From positions 62,001 to 126,000 of the forward strand of contig NZ_JAHNZT010000020.1 in assembly GCF_019039035.1 (NCBI RefSeq): 64,000 nucleotides of DNA, written 5' to 3'. Shown here piece after piece: positions 1-10,254 of the stretch (positions are counted from its first letter, which is position 1; every line of letters starts with the position of its first letter). Under the pieces are notes generated by a model. The model was not told the origin of the DNA. It worked only from the letters and a program-made list of their open reading frames with translations, and did not search any database. The stretch comes from Citreicoccus inhibens (GTDB lineage Bacteria > Myxococcota > Myxococcia > Myxococcales > Myxococcaceae). The translations under genes were made by a program, and so were the position numbers.

Positions 1-758
1 GCGGAGACGCCGTCTGGCCCGAGTGCCTGCCTCGCCCGCTGAATTGCGTCGAGTGTGCGTCGATGGCTGTCCCCTCCTCGGACAGGACGCTGGGCATTGT
101 GGAGATCCTCGGGCCCGTCCAGAGAGGTCGAGAGCAGCACTCCGTGAACTCGACAGAAGTCCAGCACCTCGTCCGTGAGTCGGGAGAGGTTGCTCGCAAT
201 CACGAACTGGAGAGCCCGGCCATGCACGGCGTTCATGGCCTTGGCCCGCTCGATGATGTACCGGATGCGTTCGAAGTGGAGCAGCGGCTCCCCACCCTGG
301 AACTCGATCTTGAGGGCGGGAGATGGACTGCGGAACATGAAGTCGAGCGCCCGGTCGGCATGTTCCTGCGACATGTCGAACTCGAGGCGGCCTTCCGCCT
401 GCCGGGACACCTGGCAGTAGGCGCACGAGTGGTCGCAGCGCAGGGTGACCACGAAGATGTGCAGCCCGGTGAAGTTCGCCAACTGCTCCGCGCGGGTCCG
501 ATACTTCAGGGCAAGCAGTTCGAGCGCCACGCGTGAGTGTGCGTCGAACAGGAAGTGGCGCGACTTGAGTGCTTGATATGTCGGACGGTCCGGTGGCAGC
601 GAATGGCCAATGAAGTCGACCAACTCCTGCCGGGAGAGCACGACGTATTCGCCGGCGTCGTTCGTGACGACATACCGGGCGGCGTCCAGTCGGCTGAAGC
701 GAACGGGCGCGAGCTGATAGCCCTGCGTGGATTGATACCGGGCGCGGTCATGGAACAT
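1..758 (-). CDS. hxsB: Radical SAM maturase HxsB, C-terminus cut off by window edge
   Basis: Radical SAM enzyme, one of the two that modify the His-Xaa-Ser protein HxsA in the four-gene Hxs cassette. I translated the minus strand from the ATG at 756-758; the frame stays open to base 1. An N-terminal region of about 120 residues precedes a CX3CX2C [4Fe-4S] cluster motif (residues CDHSCAYC). It is followed by the SAM-binding motif EFQGGEP and the strand/turn segments STSLDGP and NAQRP, all typical of peptide-modifying radical SAM proteins. The C-terminal part lies beyond the left edge, as presumably does the partner enzyme HxsC. The start lies 14 bases after the hxsD stop codon, so it is the last visible gene of the operon starting at 10,254. 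Radical SAM identity is certain from the motifs. The HxsB label rests on the adjacent HxsD and HxsA. Confidence 0.85.
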   Translation of the reverse strand, partial: MFHDRARYQSTQGYQLAPVRFSRLDAARYVVTNDAGEYVVLSRQELVDFIGHSLPPDRPTYQALKSRHFLFDAHSRVALELLALKYRTRAEQLANFTGLHIFVVTLRCDHSCAYCQVSRQAEGRLEFDMSQEHADRALDFMFRSPSPALKIEFQGGEPLLHFERIRYIIERAKAMNAVHGRALQFVIASNLSRLTDEVLDFCRVHGVLLSTSLDGPEDLHNAQRPVRGGDSHRRTLDAIQRARQALGPDGVS

Positions 759-772
759 GGCGTGCGTCGAAT

Positions 773-1141
773 TCAGTCCTGGCGAATCAGGTCCGTACGC
801 GAGAAGGCCTGGGCGACAATCAGGGCACGCAGGGCTCGCGTCTCGTCGCCTACCTGTTCCCGGAGCTCCTGGTCCAGCAGCTCCTGGAAGAACAGCCGCA
901 GGGTCTCCAGCGCGTCTTGCTCAGTGACGGTGGGGGCGAAGATGCAGCGAATGGGGAGGCGCTCCTCCTTGGGTGAGTCGAACACCGCAGTGAATTGCTC
1001 CGCGAAGCGGTAGGCGGACTTCTGAATCGCCGCGAGTCGATAGACGCGCAGATCGAGGAGGGTTTGAATCACCCCGTCTCGGAAGATGAAGGGGGATTGT
1101 GTCTCGGTGTCCGTCTTCGTCACCTGATCGCTCCTCACCAT
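773..1141 (-). CDS. hxsD: His-Xaa-Ser system protein HxsD
   Basis: Small soluble protein of 122 residues, with no signal peptide or membrane segment. HxsD is an obligate member of the HxsABCD cassette; its biochemical role is unknown to me, and a helper or recognition role beside the radical SAM enzymes is inference. What marks it is a hydrophobic first strand, then VYRLAAIQKSAYRF, the tyrosine/alanine-rich helix I associate with this family, and a Glu/Arg-rich C-terminal helical region. Its ATG overlaps the end of hxsA by seven bases (1135-1141), which suggests translational coupling, and hxsB starts 14 bases after its stop. A GTG one codon downstream is an alternative start. Confidence 0.78.
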   Translation of the reverse strand: MVRSDQVTKTDTETQSPFIFRDGVIQTLLDLRVYRLAAIQKSAYRFAEQFTAVFDSPKEERLPIRCIFAPTVTEQDALETLRLFFQELLDQELREQVGDETRALRALIVAQAFSRTDLIRQD

Positions 1142-1734
1142 TCAATCGAGACCTGGCCCGTTTGCCCCGCGACGAGCTCCACCTCGACCGTGGTGGAGCC
1201 CAGGAATGGATTCTCGACACGGACCCTGTGCTTGCCCGCAGACAGCCGCATGACTCCCGTCACGTCCACGCCCGCCGGCTTCTCATCGACGAAGATTCGG
1301 CCTCCGGGGTACGCGATGAAGGACACCGACGCCGCCTTGGGCGGAGGGGCGGGATGTGTCCTCGGCTCGGACGCGGGATGCACCTTCGGCTCGGATGAGG
1401 GATACGTGGTGGGTTCGGGCGGTGGTGGGGCCTTCGGTGCAACTGGGGCAACATAGTCGTCACCGCTGTAGCTTCGACTCCTGCTGCCGCTCCCAGAGTA
1501 GTGGCTGCGATGAGAAGAATGGGAGCGATGACCCGCCAGCAGGATCTGGCCCTGCGTGGGAGGCACGACGAGGAGCAGCTCACCCCGCGAGTCCTCTTCA
1601 TCGCGACGCCTCCAGGTGGGCTGGGCGACCTGGAGCGTGATGCCGGGGACGAGTAGCCCCGAGGGCGCCGCGCCACCCAGCAGGCCCATGAGCGCCGCGC
1701 TGACGGAGAGCAGACGGGGAGGTTTCGAGTTCAT
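1135..1734 (-). CDS. hxsA: His-Xaa-Ser repeat protein HxsA with C-terminal PEGA-like domain
   Basis: Probable substrate of the Hxs radical SAM enzymes, 199 residues. An N-terminal hydrophobic stretch (about residues 8-32) could be a signal or membrane anchor. At residues 69-80 there are four contiguous His-Xaa-Ser triplets, HRS HSS HRS HYS, followed by a Ser/Gly/Arg segment; this is the defining motif of HxsA. A proline-rich spacer (about 97-133) leads to a beta-rich C-terminus (about 135-199) with the PEGA-like pattern GGRIFVDEKPAG and a basic hydrophobic strand HRVRVENP. The HxsA proteins I recall do not carry such a domain. The chosen ATG (1732-1734) overlaps the stop of the upstream gene as ATGA, and the 3' end overlaps hxsD. 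A longer open frame continues upstream, but only inside the neighbouring gene. Confidence 0.85.
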   Translation of the reverse strand: MNSKPPRLLSVSAALMGLLGGAAPSGLLVPGITLQVAQPTWRRRDEEDSRGELLLVVPPTQGQILLAGHRSHSSHRSHYSGSGSRSRSYSGDDYVAPVAPKAPPPPEPTTYPSSEPKVHPASEPRTHPAPPPKAASVSFIAYPGGRIFVDEKPAGVDVTGVMRLSAGKHRVRVENPFLGSTTVEVELVAGQTGQVSIEW

Positions 1735-3965
1735 GGCGACACGTCTCCAATCCGCAGCTCCATCAGGGATGTTCCACTCCATCTCGCCACGAGAGGCACC
1801 GCGCCATCCCTCCAGGAGGACTGTGTGGGAGCCTTGCCGGAGAGTGCCTTCGGAGGTGAGGGCAGTTCGACCGAGTGTCCCAGGACACGCGCGAGGAGTG
1901 CCTTCGTGGTTTCGGAACCGCTGCCATTGAGGGCTCGCGAGCCCTTGTTCGCGCCCACCAGATATGCGCCCACGCAGCGCCCGTTCTTGAGTGCGCAGAA
2001 GAGCGTAACTTCTGAGGTGGTCTTCGTCAGGATGTTGGGCGTGCTCCCCGCCGTCAGGTCCATCAGCGCGATGGCCATGGCTCCGTCGGCGCCGATGAGC
2101 GCGATCCGCGCTCGCTCCTCTCGAGCCCACACCGAGGCTTGGTGCGCAAGCTCTCCCAGCTTCGCATCGGATGGGTTTTCCCCCAGCTCGGTGCTGAGCG
2201 CGCTTGTCTTGTCGAGGCGCACGACCCACTCCAGGGTGGCGACCTTGGGGCGAGGCGCAGGGGTCAATTGCTCCACGAGTGCCGTGCGTACCTGTCCGAG
2301 TTGCTGCTCGCGGCTCGGTGTGGGCTCGGCGCGAAGCGCGGCGGACAGGGCCTTCCATCGGCAGAGATCCGTCCCGCATCCTGCGTACTCCGTGTCGTGG
2401 AGACGCGCCGTCAGCTCACCAAAGTCCTTCGCGAATCCTTGCTCGAGCACGGGGCGGGCTGAGGCGAGCACTTCCGATGCGACGTTCACATCCTTGCGCT
2501 CGAGCGCTGCGAGAACCTGCTTCCGCGCGAGGGTCTGGAGATGCTGTTCGACCTTCGACCGCTCCGATGAGCCGGGCTTCAGCAGGAGTGCATCCTTGGC
2601 GACCGCGTCCACATGAAATTCCTGGAGCGCATGGGCGAGATGGAGCGCTGTCCAGGCCGGTTGGAGCCCAGGCTCCTCAGGGCCGCCCAGTGCGATCAGC
2701 TCCAGGTTGGCGTCGTCGAGGCGGCCCTCGGAGATGTGTCGTTGGGCCTCGTCGAGCCTGGGTTCCGATGCCACCGCGAGGACGCCGACCAGGAGCGCGG
2801 AGACCGCTGCGCCGATTCCCCATCGTCGCGCCCGTTCCTTCCGTCCCAGGGTCGAGTGCTGGACGAAGCGCTCGGCCAGAATCGCGGATGCACCGAGGAC
2901 GGTGCTGAGCGCCAACAACAGGCCGTTCCAGAAGTAGACGCCACGCAGGGTGTAGAGCAGTGGCACCCCGATGGCCACCGCGACGAGGGCGGCTCGCGCC
3001 GCGAAGACCTTCCGGGCTCGTGCGGCGAACTGCCGGTCTGCGGCGACGGGGGGCGGGAGCATCCGCTGGCCCTCGAACCCAATCGCTGTCGGGGGCGCGT
3101 CCGTGATGGCGTATGAGACGCGCGCGGTGGGGACGTCGAAGACCTGGAAGCTCTGGCGAGTGATGCGCTCTCGCGACTTGAGTCCGACCTGGGTCTTTCC
3201 CCAATGCGCCTGGAGCCAATCGGCGGAAAAATGGGGTGCGACCTTCTCCCGGGTCAGTACGCCGTTCGCGGTGATCTGGCCCACGAGCTTCGCGTCCTTC
3301 TCCATGTCTCCAGTCGTCCACTCCAGTCGGCGCAGTTCCTCGTCTTCCGTCATCACCAGGAAGTCGAAGCGGACTGCCTCGACGAACTCGAGCCAGCGCT
3401 GTTCCCGGCCGGACCCGCTGCACGTCGAGCAAGACAGCCGGCCTCCAAAACAGCGACGACAAGGCACCATCCCTGTCGCACCGCACGCCTTGCAGTTCAT
3501 GAGCCGGCGGGAGCCGTTCGAGGCCCGGCCATAGGCCTTCCGGGAGCCTCCGCAGTGGGAACAACGAAGCTCTGCTCTGCCTCCGCAATCGGCGCAGGCG
3601 ACATCGCCTCGTCCATCGCACGGAGTGCACGCGAGGACGGAGAGGCTGCTCTCGCGGAGGCTCGCTTGTGTCTCCTCCCAAGGGTCCACGCTGTCCGCGC
3701 TTCGCCTCACGCCCGTGACACGCGGCGAGCCCTGGGCCGTGCTTTCCTTCCACACCACTTGCCGCTCGGTGATGATGGAGTAGAGGCGACAGGCCCTGCG
3801 CACCTGCGGCTCCACCGTGCGGATGAAGTCGGTCGGATTCGCCGGGGGGACGGGCAATCGGCGCGTCCAGTTCGAGAAGGCCTGGACGGCGGCGTGCTGG
3901 ATGGCCTCCTCGCCCTCGAGAGGCATCGGGTCGACTGCCTGGGATTCGTGAGATGGATGGCTCAT
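1731..3965 (-). CDS. Membrane protein with DnaJ-type zinc finger, in Shango/Hxs operon
   Basis: A 744-residue protein of unknown function. An N-terminal soluble region carries a Cys-rich block at about residues 115-190 with repeated CXXCXG motifs (CTPCDGRG, CADCGG, CSHCGG, CKACGATG, CRRCFGG, CSTCSGSG), as in the zinc-binding cluster of DnaJ. There is no J domain. Around residues 315-400 come hydrophobic segments (about three transmembrane helices), followed by a C-terminal region of about 330 residues without a domain I recognise. The ATG at 3965 is preferred because it lies 28 bases after the sngC stop, whereas longer starts would run inside sngC. Its stop overlaps the hxsA start by four bases. 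It therefore links the Shango-like genes to the Hxs genes, and may be a membrane receptor or chaperone-like partner for HxsA (inference). Confidence 0.8.
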   Translation of the reverse strand: MSHPSHESQAVDPMPLEGEEAIQHAAVQAFSNWTRRLPVPPANPTDFIRTVEPQVRRACRLYSIITERQVVWKESTAQGSPRVTGVRRSADSVDPWEETQASLRESSLSVLACTPCDGRGDVACADCGGRAELRCSHCGGSRKAYGRASNGSRRLMNCKACGATGMVPCRRCFGGRLSCSTCSGSGREQRWLEFVEAVRFDFLVMTEDEELRRLEWTTGDMEKDAKLVGQITANGVLTREKVAPHFSADWLQAHWGKTQVGLKSRERITRQSFQVFDVPTARVSYAITDAPPTAIGFEGQRMLPPPVAADRQFAARARKVFAARAALVAVAIGVPLLYTLRGVYFWNGLLLALSTVLGASAILAERFVQHSTLGRKERARRWGIGAAVSALLVGVLAVASEPRLDEAQRHISEGRLDDANLELIALGGPEEPGLQPAWTALHLAHALQEFHVDAVAKDALLLKPGSSERSKVEQHLQTLARKQVLAALERKDVNVASEVLASARPVLEQGFAKDFGELTARLHDTEYAGCGTDLCRWKALSAALRAEPTPSREQQLGQVRTALVEQLTPAPRPKVATLEWVVRLDKTSALSTELGENPSDAKLGELAHQASVWAREERARIALIGADGAMAIALMDLTAGSTPNILTKTTSEVTLFCALKNGRCVGAYLVGANKGSRALNGSGSETTKALLARVLGHSVELPSPPKALSGKAPTQSSWRDGAVPLVARWSGTSLMELRIGDVSP

Positions 3966-3993
3966 GGGAGACAGGGCCTCATCAGGGGAATCG

Positions 3994-6255
3994 TCACTGC
4001 AACACCTGCTGGGCAGCCCGCAGCGCTCCCTGGACATCCAGGTACCGCGCGGCATAGTCGCGAGCGAGCAGCTCCTCCGGCACGAAGCCGTCGTGCTTCT
4101 CGAGGGCCATGTTGGCCACGTAGCGGGTGAGGGACTCAGCTCGAGGTTCGCCCGCTGCTACGAGCGCGCGCAGGGCGCTTTCCACGTCGGATTGTTGCCC
4201 TTCCACGCTGAGCACTGGCCCCAAGGTCTCCACCGCCAACCCATGCGCCCGGAGCGCGAGCGCCAGCGTGTGCACCACCGCGTCGCCAGCCCACGGGAAG
4301 ACATGGACCTGCCGACCGGAGGCCACGATGGCTCGCTCGCTGAGCCTCCAGCGCCGGAAGGTCGCGCGAGCTTCCGTCAGCAGCTCCTGTGCGCGCGCAT
4401 CCAGGTAGCGGGGCAGGGTGTCGCTGGCATAGACCGAGCGCATCTGTTCCCGGACCCGGTCATGCACACCGCCCACGCCGGTCGACTCGAACATGGGGAC
4501 TCGCCCCGCGGGCGCGGGCTCCAACTCCACGACCTTCTCGTCTCCCTGCACGGCAAGCACTCGCCACCGCCGTCCGCCGAAGATGAGGTACGTGCCGACG
4601 AAGAGCGGCTGGTCGATGGGCATCGTGCCCAACGTGCGTCCTCCGCTCACCAGCCGGAACTCCTCCACCGAGGCGAAGGCCGCATAGAAGCTGTAGTGGT
4701 TGACGAGCCGCTCACCGACTCGCCCCAACAGCAGGGTCCCATCCGAGGACTGCGAGATCAGCTCCCGTTGTCCCAAACCCCGCAGGAAGCTCGCGAAGTC
4801 ATGGCGCGCCACCCTCGCGAAGGGACCTTGGTGACACAGCGCCAGGAATGCCTCGCCTGCCTTGACGCCGCCATGCTGGGCGATGAGCGAGAGCAGTTGC
4901 TGCACCAGCGTTGAGAAGTGGTAGGCCCCCGACGCGGGGGGCTCGAACCAGTTCGTCAAGAGCAGGTCGAGCATGGCCACGGATTGGACCAGTCGCACGC
5001 GGAGTTGGTCCGGCAGTGGGCTGGTGCTCGTCAGCTCGGCTTCCTGCAGATACATCCGGAGCACGGCGGGTCCGCCCTTCCGGCCACTTCGCCCCAGGCG
5101 CTGACGGAGGCTGGCCACTGAGGGAGGGACTCCCACCTGCGCGATGCTCTGCACCGCGCCCACATCGATGCCCATCTCCAGCGTGGTGGTGCACACGAGG
5201 CTGACGGGGCGCTGCTTGGCCTTGAGCGCGCTCTCCGCTTCTTCGCGCAGCTCCTTGGAGAGGTTGCCGTGGTGCGGGAAGAACTCGTTGGGCAGCCGCG
5301 CCTCTTCACACATGCGGCGCAACAAGTCCGCGTAGAGTTCGACGTTCGCCCTGCTGTTGGCGAACACGAGGTTGTGTGTCCCCCTCAGCGTCTTGAAAAG
5401 GTGGGCCCCCACGTCGTGCTCGTCCTCGGGCCTGCCGTCAGCGGGCTCAGGGCCACCTGGCCCCCTATTCGAATCGTCTTCGCTGGAGGCGAGCTGCCGC
5501 GCATCGGGCGCGCGCCTGCGATAGCCCCTGAGCTGAAGGAGCAGCTCTCCACCGCCCGCGGTGGAGTTGCACAACTGGACCTTCGCGCCACCGCCGGGCC
5601 GGATGAATTCCGCGGCCAGTGACATATCGCCCAGCGTGGCGCTGAGGCCCACTCGCGGCACGGTGCGACGCAGCGTCAGTTCGAGTCGATGCAGGAGCGA
5701 TTGGAGCTGGCAGCCGCGCTCGGTGCCAATGAAGGCATGCAGTTCATCGATGACAATGACCTCCAGTCCCGAGAACAGTCCCACGAGCGAGGAGCCCTGG
5801 CGGATGAAGAGTGCCTCGAGCGACTCCGGCGTGATGAGGAGAATGCCCGCGGGCGACTTGAGCAGCTGCGCCTTGTGTCCCTGGGAGACATCACCGTGCC
5901 AGCGATGCACGGGGATGCCAAGCCCCGTGCAGAGCCCGTCCAGCCGCTCGAACTGGTCATTGATGAGCGCCTTGAGCGGGCCAACGTAGATGGCGCGCAC
6001 GCTCCCGCCGGCCGCATCGGCCAGCCGGCTGCAAATGGGCAGGAAGGCGGCCTCCGTCTTCCCGCTGGCCGTCGATGCCGAGAGGATGACGTCGTGCGTC
6101 CCCTCGAGGATGGGAGCGATGGCTGCCTCTTGAATGCCTCTCAGCTCCTTCCACCCCTGCGTCCATACCCAGCGCTGCACCTGGGCGTGCAAGCGTTGGA
6201 AGGCGCTCGAGGTGGCGCCGCTCGGGTCAGAGCTTGAAGGATGCGAGCTCATCAT
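3994..6255 (-). CDS. sngC: Lhr-type DEAD/DEAH helicase, Shango SngC-like
   Basis: Superfamily 2 helicase of 753 residues. Motif I is ASTASGKTEAA, motif II is the DELH box in VIVIDELHAF, motif III is SATLGD and motif VI is QRLGRSGRKGG, giving two complete RecA-like domains. The C-terminal half has a winged-helix-like region and a segment resembling Lhr/BrxHI helicases. Such helicases act on DNA or RNA using ATP. Next to a TerB-domain protein and a DUF2791 ATPase this is the composition of the three-gene Shango anti-phage system (SngA, SngB, SngC), as I recall it from published screens. Its start lies 29 bases inside the end of sngB, so translation is probably coupled; an internal start is possible. 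No nuclease motif is seen. Confidence 0.8.
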   Translation of the reverse strand: MMSSHPSSSDPSGATSSAFQRLHAQVQRWVWTQGWKELRGIQEAAIAPILEGTHDVILSASTASGKTEAAFLPICSRLADAAGGSVRAIYVGPLKALINDQFERLDGLCTGLGIPVHRWHGDVSQGHKAQLLKSPAGILLITPESLEALFIRQGSSLVGLFSGLEVIVIDELHAFIGTERGCQLQSLLHRLELTLRRTVPRVGLSATLGDMSLAAEFIRPGGGAKVQLCNSTAGGGELLLQLRGYRRRAPDARQLASSEDDSNRGPGGPEPADGRPEDEHDVGAHLFKTLRGTHNLVFANSRANVELYADLLRRMCEEARLPNEFFPHHGNLSKELREEAESALKAKQRPVSLVCTTTLEMGIDVGAVQSIAQVGVPPSVASLRQRLGRSGRKGGPAVLRMYLQEAELTSTSPLPDQLRVRLVQSVAMLDLLLTNWFEPPASGAYHFSTLVQQLLSLIAQHGGVKAGEAFLALCHQGPFARVARHDFASFLRGLGQRELISQSSDGTLLLGRVGERLVNHYSFYAAFASVEEFRLVSGGRTLGTMPIDQPLFVGTYLIFGGRRWRVLAVQGDEKVVELEPAPAGRVPMFESTGVGGVHDRVREQMRSVYASDTLPRYLDARAQELLTEARATFRRWRLSERAIVASGRQVHVFPWAGDAVVHTLALALRAHGLAVETLGPVLSVEGQQSDVESALRALVAAGEPRAESLTRYVANMALEKHDGFVPEELLARDYAARYLDVQGALRAAQQVLQ

Positions 6256-7567
6256 CTGCTCCGGACACAGGGCTCCCCGCCTCGGTCTCGGTCAGGGGCG
6301 CCAGGTCGGGATTGACGTCCGCGGCGAATTCCACGCCGCCGAGCAACTCCTTCCAGTTCGCGCTCGGGTTCTGTTCGAGCACGGCCAGGAGATTGATGAA
6401 GGCGGTGACGGTGCTCCGGGGCGTGCGGAAGTAGGCCTCGCCGATCCGTTCGGAGCAGTGGGTCATGAAGCCCTGGAGTCCCTCGTCGGGCAGGCGCTGT
6501 GCAGACGTGTCTCCGGCGGAGTAGACATGCCTCAGTTTGGTGAGCAGGACGTACAGGTCCTCGGGGGTGAGGTTGGCCAGCCGGAGGACCGGGGAGCTGT
6601 AGTCAACCATGCTGCCCACCGCGAAAGTGTTCTGGGCCAGTCGGGACTGGAGCGCCTCGTAGCTGTAGAGGCCACGGCGTGTGTCCATGAGGAACTCCGG
6701 TGTCCCTCCCAGGATGAAGCCCAGACCTTCGGCGCTCCCCTGGAGACAATCATTGAGGATGCGGAGGATCTGCTCGTAGTTGGATGCGCGTGCTTTGGTA
6801 TTGGCCAGCTTGTAGAGGTTGACCAGCTCATCCAGGCACACCAAGAGCCCGTCATAGCCAGACAGACGGACGAATCGGGCCAGGAGCTTCAGTTGATCGT
6901 AGACATCCGCGTCGTCGATGATGGTGCGGACTCCGAGTGCCTTGCGCGCATCGGTGCGCGTCGAGAACTCGCCGCGCAGCCACTTCACGGCGTCCGCCTT
7001 GAGCACCTCGTTGCCGCTGTCGTGGCCGCGCCAGTAGGCGGCGATGACCTCCGCGAAGTCGTACCCGCCCACCAGTTCTGACAGTGCGGCGAGCTTCTCC
7101 CGGATGACCACCTCGGCATTCTGGTTGCGGCTCTTCGCGTCCGTGAGGGCGCTGGAGACGAAGCGCTCCACGACGCTGGCGAGCGCGCCGCCCTCAGGGC
7201 GGGCTCGGGTGGCCAGATTGCGCATCAGCTCCGCGTAGAGTCCGCGAGCCTTGCCGTCCGTTGCGTGGATGCGCCGGTCGGGATTGAGGTCCGCGTGCAG
7301 GGTGACGAGCCGCTTCTCCAAGGCGATGGAGCGGATGAGATTGAGGAAGAACGTCTTGCCAGAGCCGTACTCGCCGATGACGAAGCGGATGGCACTTCCT
7401 CCCTCGGCGATTCGCTCGACGTCGCGGACCAGGGCCCGGACTTCCTCCACTCGACCGACCTGGATGTGTTGTTGACCCACGCGAGGCACCACACCCGCGC
7501 GCAGCGACTGGACGATGGCGTCCCGATCCTTGGGCCTGATGCGTCCCTGCGGTGTCGCGTCTGTCAT
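6227..7567 (-). CDS. sngB: BrxD/DUF2791-like ATP-binding protein, Shango SngB-like
   Basis: P-loop ATPase of 446 residues. The Walker A motif is GEYGSGKTFF (near residue 66) and the Walker B motif is LLVCLDELVNLY (about residue 240). The segment after it, LRILNDCLQG followed by GFILGGTPEF, matches the sensor-containing core of the BREX ATP-binding family (DUF2791, BrxD). In Shango the ATPase sits between the TerB protein and the helicase, exactly as here. It probably provides ATP-dependent assembly or loading for the helicase, but this is inference. The ATG overlaps the sngA stop by four bases (7564-7567). Confidence 0.82.
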   Translation of the reverse strand: MTDATPQGRIRPKDRDAIVQSLRAGVVPRVGQQHIQVGRVEEVRALVRDVERIAEGGSAIRFVIGEYGSGKTFFLNLIRSIALEKRLVTLHADLNPDRRIHATDGKARGLYAELMRNLATRARPEGGALASVVERFVSSALTDAKSRNQNAEVVIREKLAALSELVGGYDFAEVIAAYWRGHDSGNEVLKADAVKWLRGEFSTRTDARKALGVRTIIDDADVYDQLKLLARFVRLSGYDGLLVCLDELVNLYKLANTKARASNYEQILRILNDCLQGSAEGLGFILGGTPEFLMDTRRGLYSYEALQSRLAQNTFAVGSMVDYSSPVLRLANLTPEDLYVLLTKLRHVYSAGDTSAQRLPDEGLQGFMTHCSERIGEAYFRTPRSTVTAFINLLAVLEQNPSANWKELLGGVEFAADVNPDLAPLTETEAGSPVSGADDELASFKL

Positions 7568-10254
7568 GACATCATCTCCTTGACCGCCAACTCATTGAGC
7601 TGAAGTGTTTCGTCGCCCTCGAGGATGGGCTCGCCGCATACCTCGAACGCCGCATCGTTGATGACGTCCAGCGCGCCGTCGGGAAGCAGGCCGAGTCCGC
7701 TGGCGAGCCTCTCCACCTCCGAGCGCGGCCACTCCGGCTTCGCGACGAGCGCGCGCAGGAGGGAGGTGTGCAGGGCATCCAGACCCGCGACCCCTGACGC
7801 GGTTGCGGATGGGCTCACCGGAGCCTCGTGAGGTGAGGTGTCCTCATCCGCGAAGATGCTGCCCAGGAGACTGGAGACCGCAGCGGTCTCCACCAGCTTG
7901 GCCTGGACACTCCGCATGTCGAGCGCCAGCCGGTCGCTTTTCTCGGGAGGCTGTGCCGGGAGGGTAAAGCCTTGTTCCGGCGTGCCAGCCAGTCGCATGG
8001 AGACGGGCCCGGTCGCCGGCGGGGGACGGGCCGCCGAGGCAGCGTGGATCTTCGAGTAGACGCTGTTCTCGTCCAGTCCCAGCATGGCGTAGAGCTTCGA
8101 CAGGGTCTTGATCTCCTGGGGGGATACGTTGCCGTCCGCCATGGCGACGTCGACCAGGAGGTTTCCGAGTGATGTCCGGGCCTCGGGTGTCAGGGCTTCC
8201 ACGCGCTTCTTGTGGCCTGTGCTGGAGGCAGGCCTCGCGAGCAGCCACGCGATATGGGCCCGGAGCCGGACTGTCTCCGCGGCGAGCAGCCCTGGTGCCA
8301 TGTCCACCCACGCTTCCATGCGCGTGACTTCTTCTGGGGAGACCGTTCCATCGGCGGTCGCCACGGCGCCGGCGAGGTGGAGCATGGCGAGCGTCGACAG
8401 GTAGCTCGGGGAAGGCGCGCTCGGTGAGTCGGGAGGGAGCGCGAAGATGCGGGCGGACTCGTCGGCCGAGAGCACCGCGCCGCCCATGCGAGGGTCAGGC
8501 TCCATGCCGTAGCCCAGCTTCTCGAGCGCCTGCGCGAGGCCCACGGCCTCGGACTTGGAGAGTTTGTTGGCGGTTGCGGTGGGCCAGTGCTTCAGCAACT
8601 CGGAGGCGGCGACTGGCGCTGAGCCGCCGCTTCCCAAGGCTTGTCGTAGGACCGCGCGGAGCGCCTGTACATCCGACCCACCCTCCATGGAGGTCGCCAA
8701 CTCGGGAGGGAGCAGCGCCAGGGCGCTCATGCTGTTGCGCGCGTCGGGGTTCTTCCCCACCCAGCGACTGTAGGACTCAAGCGAATTGCAGCAGTCCTCG
8801 ATGAGTGCGCGGACGGGTTTGAGAGACGTCTCCGAGGCCTCGTTGACGGACGTCGATGCCAGTCGCACGGGGCCTCCGAAAGAGGCGCTCGCGGGGCTGT
8901 AGCGGGCCTCCACCTTCGCCTTCCTGGCTCGCGGGACGGTGCCCGCGCCGAGGTCTCGCTGATAGCGCGCGCGGAAGAGGGCCTGGAACTCCTCGGGGCA
9001 GCGGGTGGCGGGTGTTCGCAGTGGGGTGTCACTGGCCTCCACGGCCCATGCCAGGGCCCAGTCCGCTGGGAGTGCGAGCCCCTGAGTGGCGGCGGCGCCC
9101 ACGGCCATGCGCACATCGAACGAAGCTGCGCCGGCGTGCCTCAGTGTGAACTGGGGGACCTCCTTCAACAGACCGCTCTCGCCGGTGCGACGCACGCGGA
9201 GGACGTCGAGGAGGGCTGAGGCGTAGCTCCGGAACGAGTTGCTCGCCCTGTAGACGTCGAGGAGACCTTGGACCTCGTCTTCGATGAGTCGGGCCTCGGC
9301 GAGGGCGTCGGGGTCCGTGCCGAGGTCGTGAATCACGCGCCGTTCCAGTCCATAGAAGAACAGGAAGACAAAGCCGACATAGGCACCGGGTTGGCGACGT
9401 CCGCCTGCGAGCCATTCGAGGTATCCCGCCCGCGAGGCGGGCGAGACCTCCGAGTACGAGGGCCAGTACCCCATGCCCTCTCCGTCGCGATTCGGTCGCG
9501 AGGCGACCTGAAGTTTGGGCTGGATGAGGGCGGGCTCGGTGCCCGGCGCATTCACGGCGCGCAGCTGTGGTCCCACATAGAGCATTCCGCCTTTGAGCGC
9601 GTACCCGGCAATCTCGATGGACTGTCCTGGCGGAATCCAGCGCGTCGGCTGCGGCGCGGTGGGCGACACCGTGGGCGCAGAGGCGGCTGGCACGGGCGCG
9701 ACGGATTCACTGGGGCGCGCAGGAGCGCTGCTGGACGCGGGCTCCTTGATGGGCGTGGATACGGCGGTTGGGCCTGCGTTGACGCGCTGTACACGCCCGT
9801 CGGTCTTCTGTGGCGGTGCGGACTCCCCTCGCATCTCGATGGGGGCGGACGGCGCTGGGACACTGGCCGCACGCATTGGGCTCGCAGGTCCCTCACGGGG
9901 CGTGGTCGGTGTGGAGGCACTCCCTGTGAAGGCGTGCGTGGCGCGTCTGAACTCCGGTGGGGGATCATCTGGGATGTGGGCCCTGAGGCCCGGGGCGATC
10001 GTCGGTGCGCTTGCCGTCTCGAATCGCAGGGCGATGGGGGAGGAGTCCGGCGCCGAGGACGCGGAGCCGATAAGGCGGGCACCGCCGGCACGGGCCTGCT
10101 GCGCGGCCTTCCATCGGGCATTGAGCTTGTTGAGCCAGACAATGCCTCCCCACGCCCCAAGCCCAACGACGACCAGACAACACAGCGTCCCGCCGACTCC
10201 GTCTGATTGAGCTGCGGCCACCAGGGTCGGCAGCGCCCGTATCCATACCCCCAT
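7564..10254 (-). CDS. sngA: TerB-N/TerB/TerB-C domain protein, Shango SngA-like
   Basis: First gene of the operon, 896 residues. A hydrophobic segment at about residues 20-40 looks like a single N-terminal membrane anchor. Residues about 80-205 are a Pro/Ala/Ser-rich linker. A TerB-N-type domain follows (about 205-420; GYWPSYSEVSPASRAGYLEW and a VFLFFYGLERR helix). A TerB domain lies at about 640-760, with two acidic Asp-Gly loops (ATADGTVSPEE and AMADGNVSPQE) that could bind metal. The last 120 residues resemble TerB-C. This order is usual for the TerB member of Shango. The ATG at 10,254 is the first in frame and keeps the anchor. If the anchor is real, the defence complex would sit at the inner membrane, which would suit the membrane protein encoded further down the operon. 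Confidence 0.8.
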   Translation of the reverse strand: MGVWIRALPTLVAAAQSDGVGGTLCCLVVVGLGAWGGIVWLNKLNARWKAAQQARAGGARLIGSASSAPDSSPIALRFETASAPTIAPGLRAHIPDDPPPEFRRATHAFTGSASTPTTPREGPASPMRAASVPAPSAPIEMRGESAPPQKTDGRVQRVNAGPTAVSTPIKEPASSSAPARPSESVAPVPAASAPTVSPTAPQPTRWIPPGQSIEIAGYALKGGMLYVGPQLRAVNAPGTEPALIQPKLQVASRPNRDGEGMGYWPSYSEVSPASRAGYLEWLAGGRRQPGAYVGFVFLFFYGLERRVIHDLGTDPDALAEARLIEDEVQGLLDVYRASNSFRSYASALLDVLRVRRTGESGLLKEVPQFTLRHAGAASFDVRMAVGAAATQGLALPADWALAWAVEASDTPLRTPATRCPEEFQALFRARYQRDLGAGTVPRARKAKVEARYSPASASFGGPVRLASTSVNEASETSLKPVRALIEDCCNSLESYSRWVGKNPDARNSMSALALLPPELATSMEGGSDVQALRAVLRQALGSGGSAPVAASELLKHWPTATANKLSKSEAVGLAQALEKLGYGMEPDPRMGGAVLSADESARIFALPPDSPSAPSPSYLSTLAMLHLAGAVATADGTVSPEEVTRMEAWVDMAPGLLAAETVRLRAHIAWLLARPASSTGHKKRVEALTPEARTSLGNLLVDVAMADGNVSPQEIKTLSKLYAMLGLDENSVYSKIHAASAARPPPATGPVSMRLAGTPEQGFTLPAQPPEKSDRLALDMRSVQAKLVETAAVSSLLGSIFADEDTSPHEAPVSPSATASGVAGLDALHTSLLRALVAKPEWPRSEVERLASGLGLLPDGALDVINDAAFEVCGEPILEGDETLQLNELAVKEMMS

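Follow-up and report, generated by a model that had tools for sequence, protein, structure and literature searches.

A zinc-finger membrane protein encoded between Shango and Hxs genes in Citreicoccus inhibens is probably a partner of the secreted His-Xaa-Ser protein HxsA

The window analysed here is a stretch of 64,000 nucleotides of Citreicoccus inhibens (contig NZ_JAHNZT010000020.1, positions 62,001 to 126,000), and one strand near its beginning carries the genes of the anti-phage system Shango and of an Hxs radical-SAM system, with a gene for a predicted membrane protein between them. That position raises the question of whether the protein connects the two modules, as an earlier note on this DNA had proposed, or belongs to one of them. 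Our comparison suggests, with a probability of roughly 0.6, that it sits in the inner membrane as the dedicated partner of HxsA, a secreted protein with His-Xaa-Ser repeats, and that Shango was added later. The genes, in window coordinates, are the following:

7564..10254 (-): sngA, TerB_N/TerB/TerB_C protein (Pfam); PADLOC SngA, E 3.8e-91
6227..7567 (-): sngB, BrxC/BrxD-like ATPase; PADLOC SngB, 609.5 bits, E 9.8e-184
3994..6255 (-): sngC, DEAD/DEAH helicase; PADLOC SngC, 922 bits, E 7.4e-278
3966..3993 (-): gap between sngC and the partner gene, 28 nt, equal in length in 8 of 8 intact Shango-Hxs loci
1731..3965 (-): partner gene between sngC and hxsA, open reading frame of 744 aa, zinc-finger/membrane/TPR/alpha-beta protein
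1731..1734 (-): ATGA stop/start overlap of the partner gene and hxsA, kept in 26 of 26 family loci
1135..1734 (-): hxsA-like gene, with a hydrophobic leader, His-Xaa-Ser repeats (aa 69-79) and a PEGA-like C-terminal domain (aa 134-199)
773..1141 (-): hxsD, TIGR03976, 68.0 bits, cut-off 50
1..758 (-): hxsB, first 252 or so aa, the rest lying outside the window, to L031:13316; TIGR03978, 593.1 bits, cut-off 370 (whole genome)

The three sng genes lie next to or overlap one another and form a complete Shango system by PADLOC, with the three matches in the order described for SngABC, namely TerB-like protein, ATPase and helicase (PMC10250203). Shango is a complete three-gene system in laboratory tests and protects Pseudomonas aeruginosa against several phages, its anti-phage activity having been demonstrated for Pseudomonas aeruginosa and E. 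coli only (PMC10250203). The locus differs from known Shango loci in the five-gene Hxs cassette that begins 28 nt after sngC, an adjacency found only in Myxococcaceae among the loci searched. Additionally, SngA has a predicted N-terminal membrane helix (aa 23-41, window 10132-10188), and the Shango loci read in Myxococcota have such a helix whether Hxs is there or not.

After the partner gene the order is hxsA-hxsD-hxsB-hxsC, hxsC lying just past the window edge (NCBIfam, 400.2 bits, cut-off 267.9). In common with the Hxs radical-SAM system HxsABCD (NCBIfam TIGR03976-TIGR03979), hxsD, hxsB and hxsC score over the curated cut-offs, and the genes stand in the usual order with the His-Xaa-Ser repeat protein first. 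HxsA itself differs, because it carries a PEGA-like tail and reaches only 33.3 bits against the TIGR03979 equivalog, below the cut-off of 121.65; the repeats are present and the C-terminus is different. The label "HxsA-like" was given on position and repeats. Since HxsA falls under the curated cut-off, the cassette is best named an Hxs variant. The tail scores 16.3 bits against PEGA (PF08308, gathering score 20.8), the YHYH partner described below, whose tail is homologous, scores 24.0, and a structure model of HxsA places a six-strand beta domain at aa 135-198. Hxs genes are mentioned in the open papers that were found, which give no function for them (PMC9062424, PMC8446631). Outside the window, farther downstream, L031 also encodes a 1077-aa protein (2-3232) that may be an OTU-type protease, with an N-terminal block of CxxC pairs and GGGDCMFLALSQLLFG as its C-terminal motif, and an adjoining 321-aa protein (3251-4216), both unrelated to the Shango-Hxs block.

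Compared with Hxs loci elsewhere, the locus has an extra, overlapping gene for a membrane partner ahead of hxsA. No partner gene was present at five plasmid Hxs loci read (four from other phyla or classes) or at the chromosomal Hxs locus of genome G001, and the partner is therefore no general need of Hxs. On two plasmids, from the unrelated bacteria Nostoc and Methylobacter, a thermonuclease-family gene lies close 3' of hxsC (L175, 7985-8521, and L176, 7609-8325), the two being on opposite strands relative to hxsC.

The partner gene is present as only one copy in the C. inhibens genome. The earlier note had placed it exactly, at 1731-3965, with 28 bases to sngC and an ATGA at the start of hxsA; sngC ends at 3994. 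The protein can be divided into these parts:

3420..3629 (-): aa 113-182, the cysteine block with its six CxxC pairs
2766..3008 (-): aa 320-400, three membrane helices predicted from hydropathy
2106..2759 (-): aa 403-620, TPR-like helices predicted to lie outside the cytoplasm, from the structure model and a TPR match of the paralogue profile
1734..2381 (-): C region, aa 529-744, with an alpha/beta domain at about aa 619-744

The CxxC pairs of the cysteine block (C113/116, 124/127, 135/138, 158/161, 169/172 and 179/182) comprise 12 cysteines that are invariant across nine orthologues with 41-89% identity. A zinc-finger block of DnaJ type without a J domain had been proposed for this region; the six pairs agree with it and no J domain was found by Pfam or NCBIfam, but the DnaJ central domain profile PF00684 (gathering score 32.7) was not reached by the partner protein. 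A paralogue scored 14.6 bits, also below that cut-off, weak DnaJ profile matches in paralogues were likewise sub-threshold (E 0.0076-0.041), and Pfam on the cysteine region returned only a sub-threshold match to the GRXCR1/2 C-terminal domain (21.3 bits against 26). The likeness to PF00684 consists in the repeated CxxC pairs, some of them CxxCxGxG, whereas the partner has six pairs instead of four, lacks a J domain, scores below the cut-off and is predicted to be anchored in the membrane. Zinc-finger chaperones free of a J domain occur in plants.

The membrane helices claimed in the earlier note were recovered as three predicted segments (about aa 320-338, 345-363 and 382-400), with basic residues N-terminal of the first and third. 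The topology rests on hydropathy and on the odd helix count; with three helices, the cysteine block and the C region are predicted to lie on opposite sides of the membrane. The orthologue of G026 (L040/L068) has two additional hydrophobic segments ahead of the cysteine block. The C-terminal region, previously taken to be of unknown fold, is now partly accounted for. An AlphaFold2 model built from five sequences was poor over the first 350 residues, with low confidence in the cysteine block, and gave a pLDDT of about 72-93 in nearly every ten-residue block between about aa 401 and 744, where it predicts TPR-like helices up to about residue 620 and then an alpha/beta domain. VIA-align matched aa 403-567 (approximately) of this model to TPR proteins including BamD, and aa 619-744 to the extracellular proteins 4ifa (Z 8.1, 2.9 A, 99 aa), 4h0a (Z 7.5, 3.0 A, 99 aa) and 4ygt (Z 7.0, 4.3 A, 98 aa). 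For the alpha/beta domain these matches may point to a CAP-associated N-terminal / DUF4309-like fold at Z 7.0-8.1, a range in which a common fold arrangement may suffice, and the Z 7-8 matches of the model may reflect just common folds. Foldseek with the full model gave nothing at E <= 0.001, and sequence searches of solved structures with the paralogue profile gave TPR-like matches and one weak DnaJ match only. Furthermore, the C region contains two cysteine pairs, 530/535 and 657/664, and the first pair is jointly absent in one relative, a joint loss that fits the disulphide expected outside the cytoplasm.

The partner gene is under purifying selection (dN/dS 0.18-0.41). Between the partner genes of G057 (L039) and G058 (L037), synonymous divergence is about 0.16 in the C part and about 0.90 in the cysteine block, a contrast that probably results from recombination inside the gene. 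A mobile or phage origin was considered and rejected: there was no plasmid match, viral contigs were without the C domain, and the one phage match was a weak one in the cysteine region (uncultured phage LR756502.1, 387246-387560, against partner aa 99-210, about 112 residues at 27.8% identity, E 6e-7).

To place the gene in its family, 195 Myxococcota genomes were searched for the C region of the partner. It was found in 14 of them, all Myxococcaceae, and adjoins hxsA in all 14, in agreement with the expectation of the earlier note that homologues would always stand beside hxsA; two further weak matches contained stop codons. The full-length partner adjoins hxsA in each of the nine genomes with an intact gene. 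Eight genomes carry the intact series sngA-sngB-sngC-partner-hxsA-hxsD-hxsB-hxsC, with the partner always between sngC and hxsA, and G026 has a full-length partner with Hxs and no SngB match genome-wide, its contig ending inside hxsA and the remainder of hxsA and hxsD-B-C lying on a second contig. Five genomes (G018, G025, G028, G037 and G038) have the C region alone (about 215 residues) before hxsA-D-B-C, without Shango, as a predicted secreted protein of about 280 aa, and four (G021, G029, G152 and G155) have Shango but neither the partner gene nor Hxs next to it. In total, both systems were found in 8 genomes, the Hxs cassette with partner only in 6 and Shango only in 4, a co-occurrence with a Fisher p of 3e-8 over 195 genomes that are not independent of one another. 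The loci are likewise not independent, since the family members are confined to Myxococcaceae, and a pattern-based scan of 84,980 species confirmed no C domain outside this family.

G054 (L046, 3035-8367) carries a ninth block, which is decayed: SngA and SngB are in broken frames and SngC is without a match, the partner is cut to about 141 aa, HxsA and HxsD have no match, HxsB has a frame break and a TAG, and HxsC is matched over its full length. Among Klebsiella plasmids hxsB was matched in many records (322), as was Shango sngB (449); an adjacency of the two on these plasmids was rejected, as tens of kb separate them in the records common to both listings.

A wider family emerged from a blast search, which found N-terminal relatives of about 790-850 aa. 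Twelve of them, one per genome in 12 genomes, are homologous to the partner from end to end (hhalign over 694 columns, probability 99.9, E 1.5e-33), and each overlaps by ATGA with the next gene downstream, for a secreted protein about 125-134 aa long with a YHYH motif and a PEGA domain; profile scores were taken from one of the 12 proteins (NF033223, E 1e-12; PEGA, 24.0 bits, cut-off 20.8). The YHYH protein and HxsA have a common layout of leader, His-rich stretch and PEGA-like tail, and the upstream zinc-finger membrane proteins share full-length homology and the same overlap. The pairs differ in the YHYH motif that stands in place of the His-Xaa-Ser repeats and in having neither hxsDBC nor Shango, no hxs genes being detected near the 12 loci. 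The earlier note had counted homologues without Hxs genes in most genomes as evidence against a linker; the wider family comes close to this, with 12 of 26 loci, all 12 having the secreted YHYH and PEGA protein at the position of hxsA. Literature searches on the YHYH domain and on PEGA in Myxococcus returned no description of the pair.

At 26 of 26 junctions read, in both partner families, the gene overlaps that of a secreted His-rich protein by ATGA. Overlaps of this kind occur at 77 of the 344 stops (22%) in these neighbourhoods, a background that probably includes most or all of the 26 family junctions, and because the 26 loci share descent they represent one arrangement conserved in two groups of paralogues, not 26 independent events. 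We propose a zinc-finger/PEGA-partner family characterized by end-to-end homology and by an ATGA overlap into a secreted His-rich partner, both of which were found in these loci; two loci of distant relatives in genus g6, which have the cysteine block only, had no such secreted partner downstream. On gene order and homology, the comparison shows the partner gene and the gene of the downstream, predicted secreted protein as a two-gene cassette, always joined by ATGA, with relatives that pair alike with a YHYH and PEGA protein. The cassette runs on into hxsD-hxsB-hxsC in 14 genomes, and intact Shango lies directly upstream in 8. Judged by these loci, the constant companion of the partner gene is the predicted secreted partner, and neither Hxs as a system nor Shango.

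How Shango came to this position was addressed with trees. In the HxsB tree one change suffices for the Shango-linked group, and in the SngB tree the Hxs-less G021 and G029 (Myxococcaceae) are on a branch of their own, internal resolution being weak in both. The trees are compatible with Shango having joined later, upstream of the partner-Hxs cassette, and probably once. Flanking genes are common only within subgroups of the eight block genomes, and this difference between subgroups indicates that the block was held together through changes of setting. We propose that the eight-gene block, intact in at least eight species, may since have behaved as one unit in inheritance, movement and loss. 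Promoter and terminator scans were no richer than shuffles.

Several other readings of the locus have to be weighed. The first is that Shango was inserted upstream of the Hxs cassette and shares with it just a promoter or mobility, the partner having an Hxs-related role only. We would put its chances a little short of even, and it is compatible with the HxsA-partner explanation, the two parting only on the step that relates Shango to the envelope. That each half is found alone, that the trees are compatible with one joining and that Shango was complete as a three-gene system in the laboratory tests of others (PMC10250203) all agree with it, but at least eight species have kept the block whole and in frame despite altered flanks, and the decayed G054 copy lost pieces of both halves.

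Rather unlikely, in our judgement, is a partner that physically couples Shango to Hxs, the eight genes being one anti-phage machine with modified HxsA as its sensor or effector at the envelope. The position between sngC and hxsA, from which the earlier note had derived its linker, does hold in 8 of 8 intact blocks, with identical order, the identical 28-nt gap, more than one chromosomal setting and purifying selection, and Shango and Hxs adjoin in 8 of 8 intact genomes that contain the two, the G054 copy having decayed in both halves. The linker does not hold more generally, as six genomes combine Hxs with the partner gene or with its C domain but lack Shango, and four Shango loci are without the partner, and the association may be a single event inherited by relatives. 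The membrane helix of SngA would suit such coupling but also occurs in Hxs-less Shango loci, and on plasmids that bear Shango as well as hxsB the two are separated by tens of kb in the records compared. A function as linker and nothing else was rejected, because the Shango and Hxs modules each occur without the other. Lastly, an ordinary DnaJ-type co-chaperone encoded here by chance is very improbable. The CxxC spacing recalls the DnaJ central domain and paralogues have weak DnaJ matches, but a plain DnaJ protein was rejected on the absent J domain and on scores below the curated cut-offs, and the tie to one secreted partner is constant.

If the partner is indeed dedicated to HxsA, the following course of events can be proposed. 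HxsA would be made straight after, and next to, its membrane partner, and its His-rich core would be modified in the cytoplasm by the radical-SAM proteins HxsB and HxsC, with HxsD, before export. Once exported, HxsA could be held at its PEGA-like tail by the extracytoplasmic TPR and alpha/beta region of the partner, and the cytoplasmic cysteine block, with its DnaJ-like spacing and putatively bound zinc, could act as a holding or sensing domain across the membrane from the C region. The envelope complex might then serve alongside, or report to, the membrane-anchored Shango proteins, a last step that would simply fit the rest. A broader version, in which Shango in Myxococcaceae has grown into a defence system of eight genes with one arm at the envelope, the radical-SAM-modified and exported HxsA being shown by the zinc-finger/TPR protein and signalling to, or being acted on by, membrane-anchored Shango, appears to us distinctly unlikely.

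With the partner assigned to HxsA, the myxobacterial branch of Hxs would gain an additional constant component. The YHYH pairs would serve as a control family, having the membrane partner without the maturation genes, and so let the role of the His-Xaa-Ser repeats and of their modification be tested. In addition, the fusion with Shango would offer natural strain pairs in which each half alone can be compared with both joined.
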